A DNA stretch of 64,000 bases from Listeria sp. PSOL-1. GTDB taxonomy: Bacteria; Bacillota; Bacilli; Lactobacillales; Listeriaceae. Made by a program: the position numbers and the translations under genes. This document shows positions 14,034-63,135 of this stretch, one piece after another. Below the pieces are notes generated by a model, which saw only the letters and a list, made by a program, of their open reading frames with translations, ran no database searches and was not told the DNA's origin. The stretch's first letter is position 1. The number at the start of each line of letters is the position of its first letter. The DNA is taken from assembly GCF_902806445.1 (NCBI RefSeq), contig NZ_LR760298.1, forward strand, positions 1,116,001 to 1,180,000, written 5' to 3'.

Positions 14034-14060
14034 AATGATTAACTCCTTTCAAGTACCTTT

Positions 14061-14112
14061 CAGTCCATTTTCTAAACAGCCTGATAAAAAAAGCTGCTTA
14101 GAAAATGAACTG
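14061..14112 (-). promoter_or_regulatory. 20-bp stem-loop in the rnc 5' leader
   Basis: In minus-strand RNA CAGTTCATTTTCTAAGCAGC pairs along its whole length with GCTGTTTAGAAAATGGACTG: 18 Watson-Crick and 2 G-U pairs, no bulges, 12-base loop containing seven U. It lies 28-79 bases before the rnc start codon. No U-tract follows, so it does not look like a terminator. Such a duplex is a reasonable RNase III substrate. Confidence 0.65.
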
Positions 14113-14174
14113 GATTAAAAAAGTTGCCTATACTGCTTAAAATAGAGGTCCCCCTGAGATCATATGCTTGTTTT

Positions 14175-14365
14175 GGGTACGACAAATCGAACGAAAGCGT
14201 CCCGATTTGCAGGTTTTGGCAGAAGTCGTACGAATAGTACGACTACACATGATGACTAAAAAAACAGGGAAAGGTAACTTTACCCGGCCATGTGACTAGT
14301 TATCAGAAATCTGTCAAAACAAGCAAAGCGAAAAGCTTGTCGCCGATTTATTTCGTTTATGTCCC
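14175..14365 (+). repeat. Intergenic palindromic repeat element, copy A
   Basis: The left arm begins GGGTACGACAAATCGAACGA. The right arm (14336-14365) includes CGCCGATTTATTTCGTTTAT and ends GTCCC. The same arms occur in copy B (62938-63086), and the right arm also in copy C (35730-35831). Inside are a perfect 8-bp hairpin (AGTCGTAC/GTACGACT, 14225-14245) and a GGG-AAAG/CTTT-CCC hairpin. There is no coding potential. It resembles a small non-autonomous palindromic repeat. Confidence 0.7.
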
Positions 14366-14436
14366 AAGCTTATAAGCTCTAATCGCCTCTTTAGATTAAA
14401 AGCAACGAGGCTATCCATGCATTCTTATCACTTGAA

Positions 14437-35705: not shown

Positions 35706-35852
35706 AAAAAAACTCTGTAGTCTAAAGCCTAGGACATAAACGAAATCAATCGGTGACAAGTGATTCGCTTGGTTTATCCTCTGCCATACTTTTTCATGTG
35801 TATTTTATGGCTAAACCAATTTATGTCCTAAACTCTTGGACCCAGAGTTTTT
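35706..35852 (-). terminator. Giant terminator after rpoZ enclosing repeat copy C
   Basis: On the minus strand AAAAACTCTG (35843-35852 side) pairs with CAGAGTTTTTTT (35706-35717 side), ending in a T-run. Between the two arms lies repeat copy C, itself a nested hairpin. It reads as a terminator whose loop holds an inserted palindromic element. It should end gmk-rpoZ and leave coaBC on its own promoter. Confidence 0.65.
35730..35831 (-). repeat. Intergenic palindromic repeat element, copy C
   Basis: The ends TAGGACATAAA and TTTATGTCCTA are perfect inverted repeats. The arm at 35732-35760 matches the right arm of copy A at 27 of 30 positions. Inner complementary segments (GGTTT/AAACC and GCCATA/TATGGC) allow one long nested hairpin. 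There is no coding potential. Confidence 0.7.
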
Positions 35853-56107: not shown

Positions 56108-56125
56108 TTCTTTCCCTCTCTCCAT

Positions 56126-56234
56126 CAAAAAACGCCTTGCCAGATTTGACAAAGCGTTTGATTGTAAAGGTTATTAGCTAAAAACAGCTTGTAGCCTTCA
56201 CTTTCATCACTCTTTGTCAGACTCACTGGACTGC
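56126..56234 (-). promoter_or_regulatory. PyrR-dependent attenuator before pyrP
   Basis: On the minus strand GCAGTCCAGTGAGTCTG (56212-56234 region) matches the PyrR-binding loop consensus with the CCAGnGAG core. It is followed about 70 bases later by a terminator hairpin, AACGC...GCGTT, with TTTTTT (56126-56159). UMP-bound PyrR should favour termination before pyrP and the downstream genes. Confidence 0.88.
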
Positions 56235-56250
56235 ATTTAAAAAGTGTTAT

Positions 56251-56921
<671 letters not shown>

Positions 56922-56959
56922 AATTTAAAGGATTTTCTATGTTCTTTTCATTGTTAACT

Positions 56960-62815: not shown

Positions 62816-63135
62816 CAATTGTCACCACTTTCTATATGTAAAAATAGCTCCTTTTATTTACTTGCTAACTTTTTTATTTTACCAGTTTTTCGGGGCGAAT
62901 GGTATTGTTTTTATTCCACTAACAATAAAACAAGTCTGGAGCATACACAAAATAAATCGGCGGCAAGCGCTCATATTTAAAAAGCTTGCCAGACTTCCGG
63001 TTCTCATGTACAGTCGTACGCTCCGCTTCCTTGTTCTGGCAAACTTTTTAAATGCAAACACTTTCGCTCGATTTGTCGTGTTCGAAATGTAGAACCTACG
63101 CTTTATTTTTTAGAAAGTATAGTGCATCAAGTCTT
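62816..63135. other. 320-base gap between copZ and ctpA
   Basis: No gene is seen. It holds repeat copy B (62938-63086), a small hairpin with a T-run pointing to the plus strand (63087-63113), and next to ctpA an AT-rich stretch with a TTGTTTTATT/AATAAAAACAA inverted repeat (62905-62935 region). A ctpA promoter must lie in this stretch, but I see no clear -35/-10 pair apart from a TAAAAT. Confidence 0.7.
62938..63086 (-). repeat. Intergenic palindromic repeat element, copy B
   Basis: Read on the minus strand, the left arm includes ACGACAAATCGAGCGAAAG and the right arm CTTGCCGCCGATTTATTTTG. Both match copy A (the right arm at 25 of 30 positions). Inside, ATTTAAAAAGTTTGCCAGA and TCTGGCAAGCTTTTTAAAT are inverted with one difference over 19 bases, making a long stem with a loop containing a CGTAC/GTAC-type mini-hairpin. 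There is no coding potential. Confidence 0.75.

Follow-up and report, generated by a model that had tools for sequence, protein, structure and literature searches.

Hairpin elements of high copy number at gene ends in Listeria, and their probable spread by stem-loop-replacing transposition

Results

Three copies of a palindromic element in a 64-kb window

The window analysed here is a stretch of 64,000 nucleotides from the genome of Listeria sp. PSOL-1. Two intergenic regions within it carry long copies of one palindromic element. Copy A (positions 14118 to 14395, + strand) sits between rnc and acpP, and copy B (62913 to 63124, − strand) lies between copZ and a gene for a ctpA-like protease; the gene names were assigned by reading of the sequences. 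Both pairs of genes are on the − strand, so that copy A is antisense to rnc and acpP, and copy B is sense to copZ and the ctpA-like gene. In a profile search, copy A (E 7.4e-28) has a diverged interior, whereas copy B (E 1.9e-57) is near the consensus. Copy B is also matched by a covariance model of the element, R1 (117.7 bits), and its apical tip (62987 to 63038, − strand) is the sole match in the window to the tip model R2 (54.1 bits, E 2.7e-13), the interior of copy A being diverged. The third copy, at about 35725 to 35840 on the − strand, is short; its right part was found by the profile (E 6.3e-06) and the remainder by eye, and it is enclosed by the arms AAAACTCTG...CAGAGTTTTTTT at about 35707 to 35852.

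The initial annotation had described copies A and B as a pair with common arms. Both copies and the arms that they share were confirmed, beyond what reversed patterns give by chance, but the element extends further in each copy than first drawn and the third copy lies besides. The left-arm pattern has two matches in the window at 0–3 mismatches (none for the reversed pattern), and at four mismatches it has three, against five for the reversed pattern. The right-arm pattern has two matches at 0–2 mismatches and three at three mismatches, with none for the reversed pattern.

The open reading frames over copy A are six, all of 31–43 amino acids, and the one over copy B is a 163-amino-acid frame on the opposite strand. 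Scanning the copy A region for promoters and terminators gave nothing informative. Rfam, run over the whole window at gathering scores, returned four other RNAs and none at the elements, and it gave no match for the element family at the curated threshold. With four element sequences (L004, L274, L282 and L149) as queries at E up to 5 or 1, it returned nothing beyond a sub-threshold ncr1175 match. At 56124–56935 and 1328–1967 the window has two PyrR binding sites together with leaders of L20 and L19, all on the − strand.

Comparison with relatives suggests that both long copies stand where terminators stood. In all 10 of the other genomes of the genus that were compared, the gap between acpP and rnc holds a hairpin flanked by AAAAAGAGG and CCCTCATTTAT; in the same gap here, copy A is flanked by AAAATAGAGG and GCCTCTTTAGA. 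The outer arms around copy A (TAGAGG ... GCCTCT, 14148 to 14390, strand unassigned) are likely the remains of the ancestral acpP terminator. By eye, copZ is followed by an ordinary terminator in the four relatives displayed, and here by copy B instead. The relatives for both gaps are too distant to set the exact boundaries of copies A and B. A second hairpin, CATTTTCTAAACAGC...GCTGCTTAGAAAATG, lies unreplaced at 14060–14115 between rnc and copy A, and the 10 relatives compared have it too.

Family size and distribution

The whole genome (G000; 2,096,749 bp in one contig) was searched for both arms by pattern. With up to three mismatches there were 76 matches to the left arm (control 11) and 82 to the right arm (control 1). 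Among them, 49 left/right pairs share a strand and are no more than 300 bp apart; at these thresholds 33 right and 27 left arms are unpaired. A profile made from 46 of these arm pairs was then run over 290,897 bp, comprising the stretches around pattern matches and the window, and at E up to 1e-4 it found 95 elements, 68 of which span the core and three of which lie in the window. Because only these stretches were covered, 95 is a lower bound; the family numbers about a hundred small, mobile hairpins in this genome. The genome measures 2.10 Mb at 95.9% completeness, less than any of the 24 other genomes of the genus that were compared (2.6–3.2 Mb).

The initial annotation had proposed a search for further copies; they were found in abundance, bringing the family to at least 95 here, with others in all nine genomes of a sister genus that were compared. 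A 219-nt consensus matched 13 of 80 relatives, with this genome counted among the 13: this one, the nine sister-genus genomes and, weakly, G009, G022 and G036, the match in G036 being 26 bp only. Covariance model R1, searched against the order with stricter filters by which weak matches were possibly lost, found 13 of 295 genomes, namely this one, the same nine, and G009, G020 and G022. The last three carry a diverged, second subfamily. In a pattern scan, 32 stretches came from Listeria booriae, newyorkensis, rocourtiae, riparia, portnoyi and cornellensis. The full sister-genus element had no match in the plasmid and phage collections. Separately, a sequence of some 76 bp that flanks one element (L191:10010-10085) matches many other places in the sister genus at 84–92%; ARAGORN found no tRNA in it, and it may be another dispersed repeat.

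Anatomy and a conserved hairpin

The element is about 220 bp long and MITE-like, with terminal inverted repeats around a long hairpin. Its outer stem is of the type GAGTCTGGGACAT...ATGTCCCAGACTC, its 5′ module carries a small hairpin, and its core forms a hairpin, AAATCGAGCGAAAGCG...CGCTTGTCGCCGATTT, with a middle stem that varies from copy to copy. In the sister genus a run of at least four T follows 37 of 62 right ends. Many cores in L. riparia (G034; C2, C7, C13, C21 and C27) measure 195 bp against 127 bp, as if they had an extra tip block.

Pairing in the hairpin is closely maintained. For the 48 pairs, examined in 42 copies, 99.0% of cells are paired, compared with 27–42% in slid controls, and 18 of the 48 pairs change on both sides, a count as high as that being reached in none of 500 shuffles. 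The two strands are not equivalent. Read on the + strand of the element, the wobble cells comprise 219 G-U against 12 A-C, and still 35 against 12 after removal of five pairs in which G-U is the majority. All 50 sister-genus copies fold more stably as the + strand, and so do 41 of 52 local copies, against 10 in which the − strand is the more stable. This asymmetry of pairing and folding points to RNA of the + strand.

Elements stand in place of older hairpins

Flank searches in the sister genus found sites at which one or two species have the element and others lack it, and copies at unrelated loci are 97–98% identical. We aligned 21 orthologous sites (5, then 16 more), each of which has an element-free ortholog. 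At 20 of the 21 the element-free ortholog holds a hairpin, and alignments of filled against empty sites show that the element replaces this old hairpin in whole or in part. The initial annotation had proposed a search for ordinary target-site duplications; none was seen in the first subfamily, where the target hairpin is instead replaced wholly or partly.

All 19 empty-site hairpin stretches tested have a minimum free energy (MFE) below −12 kcal/mol, with a median of −21.3. The same level is reached by 26.8% of 1,500 random windows and by 41.7% of 369 windows placed downstream of long open reading frames, many of the latter windows containing terminators themselves. This energy control is approximate, the 19 stretches being of variable length and cut by eye and the controls being 58 nt, and the hairpins at S5 and S11 are only within the lowest 7% of random windows. 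At S13, hairpins were seen by eye in element-free G033, G030 and G034, outside the 19 energy values. The exception among the 21 is S8, where element-free G033, G035 and G032 show a short gap without a hairpin; this may reflect loss of the hairpin or a hairpin-free target.

The clearest exchange of a hairpin for an element is at S9, where the flanks match up to the boundary and the 120-nt flank is 100% identical in empty G025. At S1, S10, S14 and S15 the old stem persists in its outer bases, which serve as arms of the new stem, S14 having G032 as its sole usable ortholog (L262 ends with its contig and L263 has diverged). Replacement is less sharp at site 0, site 4 and S4, and at S4 the G025 and G031 orthologs differ too much. 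One ortholog each at S5, S12 and S16 is itself filled. For site 1 we considered whether the new outer arms might be the old ones swapped, but discarded this because sites 2 and 3 show no swap.

Ends shared with an IS1182-family insertion sequence

The termini of the sister-genus elements recur in insertion sequences (ISs). The IS in L293 has an intact open reading frame for an IS1182-family transposase (NF033551, 428 bits, cut-off 270). In this IS and in that of L294, both termini read GAG, two letters, TGRGACAAAAG, as they do in the sister-genus elements. The L293 ends, GAGNNTGRGACAAAAG, resemble the element ends, and the terminal repeats GAGNNTGRGACAAAA are common to the sister-genus elements and both ISs. 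With at most one mismatch, the 15-mer end occurs 12 times inside elements and once outside them in 398,020 bp. A left end within three mismatches is found in only 37 of 75 sister-genus elements, against 13 of 75 for the reversed pattern. The inner hairpin of the elements is absent from the IS.

A near-full matching IS is present in 2 of 36 Listeriaceae genomes, both of the sister genus; other matches are fragments or distant relatives. The shared ends are demonstrated for the sister genus, whereas the genome studied here is without the IS, a search of it for the IS protein having found nothing. The transposase domain PF13751 occurs in 5 of the 13 element-bearing genomes and was not found in the other eight, this one included. 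Other PF13751 proteins are a 419-amino-acid protein in G027 and partial ones in G025 and G033. From the common ends we infer that an IS1182-type transposase moves the elements. Given that the domain is missing from eight of 13 genomes and the matching IS occurs in two of 36, the enzyme may have been lost, or may be another.

A second subfamily with duplicated hairpins

Elements in G022, G009 and G020 have different ends, which in G022 are CAGACTGAAG... and ...CAAGCTG. These second-subfamily copies are mostly flanked on both sides by the same terminator-like hairpin, which differs from locus to locus. By an automatic criterion the hairpin is duplicated at 16 of 20 copies, with duplicated stretches of 22–33 bp; two that fail it (L289 and L292) have duplicated arms visible by eye, and two (L287 and L290) have none. 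A PF13751 transposase was not found in these three genomes. Replacement and duplication, the two outcomes of the published IS1272 model, are visible in sister groups. At S13, G027 of the sister genus holds an element of the second type where G029, G031 and G025 hold one of the first (by eye). This element (L363, G027:C1:3008535-3008995) lies at that shared terminator, as if the target were common to both subfamilies.

Orientation to genes

Simple open reading frame calls gave a gene context to 59 of the 75 sister-genus elements and to 56 of the 95 local ones. In the sister genus 35 elements are sense between tandem genes and one is antisense, with 15 between convergent and eight between divergent genes; in this genome the numbers are 29, 11, 13 and three. 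The binomial p values for orientation are 1.1e-9 and 0.006, respectively, orthologous sites being not fully independent. A bias to one replication half was sought and none was found (27/26 and 21/21). TnSha1, like IS1272 of the IS1182 family, has been reported in both orientations (PMC4923244, in the text available), so a strong bias would not be expected from the transposase alone, and selection on the transcript is the simplest reading of the sense bias.

The apical tip beyond Listeria

The tip of the hairpin recurs well outside the genus. A search with a 48-nt consensus of the tip picked out 30 plasmid records, chiefly from Sphingobium, Shinella and Agrobacterium, and no phage record. With an element of the sister subfamily as query there were 12 plasmid records, one of them from Legionella adelaidensis. 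The motif AGCGGAGCGTAC-N(3-7)-GTACGTGAG was found in 19 stretches of viral contigs, 18 of them with a GC content of 0.60–0.68 and one of 0.46. The folded tip copies beyond Listeria sit in long palindromes, and the letters of the tip stem co-vary across groups (GT/AC, AT/AT, GG/CC).

The tip also appears to resemble the centre of ERIC. Model R2 was built from 20 tips with ERIC excluded. When run on both E. coli ERIC copies tested, it matched their centre (17.9 bits, E 0.0019 in 22,860 bases), the match spanning only 21 of 52 model positions and the next match having E 0.33. This likeness is suggestive and short of proof. ERIC (or IRU) is likewise a long imperfect intergenic palindrome, with the tip GGAGC-TTAC-ATAA-GTAA-GTGA; its outer stems read differently, and in the R2 search the alignment is confined to the tip. 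The ERIC core, in the form given by its primers, is present in 5,375 of 5,426 E. coli genomes. For the alphaproteobacterial relatives, we take RIME to be the first candidate.

Discussion

We suggest that these are probably MITE-like elements moved by a DDE transposase of the IS1182/IS1272 type through stem-loop-replacing transposition. The target would be a hairpin recognised by its structure and not by its sequence, mostly an intrinsic terminator at the end of a gene. Insertion would occur at the base of the stem or within it, with the old hairpin lost wholly or partly, and the terminal repeats, GAGNNTGRGACA...TGTCYCANNCTC, would form a new stem beside the old T-tract. The gene would probably retain a terminator after insertion, and an insertion that costs so little would allow the element to build up to about 100 copies in each genome. 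Selection on the RNA, and perhaps also on a DNA cruciform used in transposition, would maintain the long inner hairpin. Preserved termination and a role for the inner RNA are what we infer from this arrangement.

The initial annotation had offered a small non-autonomous mobile element or an RNA-level hairpin family. Each half fits what was found: the first is favoured by the number of copies, by insertions peculiar to single species at orthologous sites and by ends in common with an IS1182-family IS, the second by covariation, the G-U bias and the sense orientation. The opposition between them did not hold up, since they look like two sides of one thing.

It is possible, though we would not call it probable, that the structured inner RNA is the primary unit. 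The elements would then be a dispersed RNA of 3′ untranslated regions, occasionally mobilised and useful to the host, whose tip binds a host factor in mRNA stability or regulation. The covariation, the excess of G-U over A-C (219:12, or 35:12 without five pairs) and the sense orientation all agree with this, as does a tip that is conserved across phyla and across subfamilies with different ends. In the part of the Bacillus cereus literature available (PMC3446304), bcr3 repeats correlate with longer mRNA half-life. Against an RNA unit of this kind, the ends match an IS, and the sites differ between close species, which leaves no fixed regulon.

The converse, in which the inner hairpin is kept solely as a DNA hairpin or cruciform for transposition and has no role as RNA, seems to us unlikely. 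It has a precedent in the IS1272 model, which, as outlined in PMC5678879, uses cruciforms in both donor and target, but the strand asymmetry of wobble pairs, the orientation bias relative to genes and the lack of any bias to a replication half all tell against it. We would give still less credence to another mechanism, RNA-templated or of the single-strand HUH type, that moves both subfamilies and makes the IS1182 end match secondary. What recommends it is that the elements of G022, G009 and G020 have other ends, a duplicated hairpin and no PF13751, and share the tip with the rest; yet the ends do match in the sister genus, and a variant in which the stem-loop is duplicated is drawn in the IS1272 stem-loop-replacing model as well (PMC5678879, in the portion available). 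That the elements are ordinary terminators, evolved in place and alike by function, as the initial annotation had allowed, is scarcely credible: they do lie at the positions of terminators, and many of them close with a terminator-like stem and a T-run, but they are a repeat family, 97–98% identical at unrelated loci and present in one species while absent in close relatives, and the filled/empty comparisons already contradict this reading.

Stem-loop-replacing transposition remains our preferred account, and several known systems resemble parts of it. As far as the available text of PMC4923244 goes, IS1272 takes hairpins and terminators as targets, part of the hairpin being lost and the target not being duplicated. 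IS1272 and TnSha1 share with the Listeria elements the sequence-independent hairpin or terminator targets, the disappearance of the target hairpin and a position immediately downstream of genes (available portions of PMC4923244 and PMC5678879). Unlike the Listeria elements, which appear to carry no transposase gene and reach about 100 copies, IS1272 and TnSha1 carry one; the Listeria elements also have a long RNA hairpin that is conserved, a bias in their orientation and, in a sister subfamily, duplication of the target hairpin.

Among miniature elements, MITEPye1 of Paracoccus yeei, which has no open reading frame, is similarly short and intergenic, has IS1182-like terminal repeats and a predicted long RNA stem-loop, and is thought to be moved by IS1182-family ISs (PMC11578231, in the text available). 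It differs, by a comparison of descriptions, in its 159 bp, its 1–3 copies per chromosome and its 4-bp direct repeats, and that portion of PMC11578231 describes no hairpin targeting. The ISMac2-related MITEs of Methanosarcina acetivorans, at 160 and 169 bp, also have an assigned IS1182-family partner, but they are archaeal, number 14 and seven copies, and in the available part of PMC3852290 hairpin targets are unmentioned. The bcr1–bcr18 repeats of Bacillus cereus are intergenic and of high copy number, some being MITE-like and some transcribed in untranslated regions; compared by description, the available part of PMC3446304 makes no mention of hairpin replacement in them.

The IS1272 type of transposition and IS1182-linked MITEs in Paracoccus and Methanosarcina are therefore already known. 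A literature search, mainly outside subscription papers, found no account of such a family in Listeria and nothing joining IS1272 with 'miniature inverted' elements. As far as these searches reach, what is new is their combination at high copy number, the presence of both outcomes in sister subfamilies, the bias in orientation and a tip shared across phyla. Stem-loop-replacing transposition was described for IS1272 and TnSha1 of staphylococci; here it has apparently rewritten roughly a hundred gene ends in each genome of a whole clade. Terminators would in this respect offer mobile DNA a sequence-independent niche in which termination may stay intact.

The shared tip ties the Listeria elements to proteobacterial repeats, possibly including ERIC, and would turn these old families into a mechanistic question. 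We tentatively raise the idea, which we hold to be somewhat improbable as a whole, that one ancient class of hairpin elements with the tip GSAGC-NNAC-N(3-6)-GTNN-GTGA, in which the stem letters co-vary, spans Listeriaceae, alphaproteobacteria, Legionella and ERIC, and spreads by recognition of terminator hairpins, which it replaces or duplicates. As the tip is constant and the ends are not, a conserved host factor or the mobilising machinery would act at the tip. To our knowledge the mode of spread of ERIC is unsolved, and a single class, if real, would give it a testable mechanism.

Many of the tip-bearing viral contigs (L329–L347) share a neighbouring gene end, TTCAGCAGCTTGATCGCGTC... (L336, 1780–1830), and a related element may be fixed there beside one phage gene.
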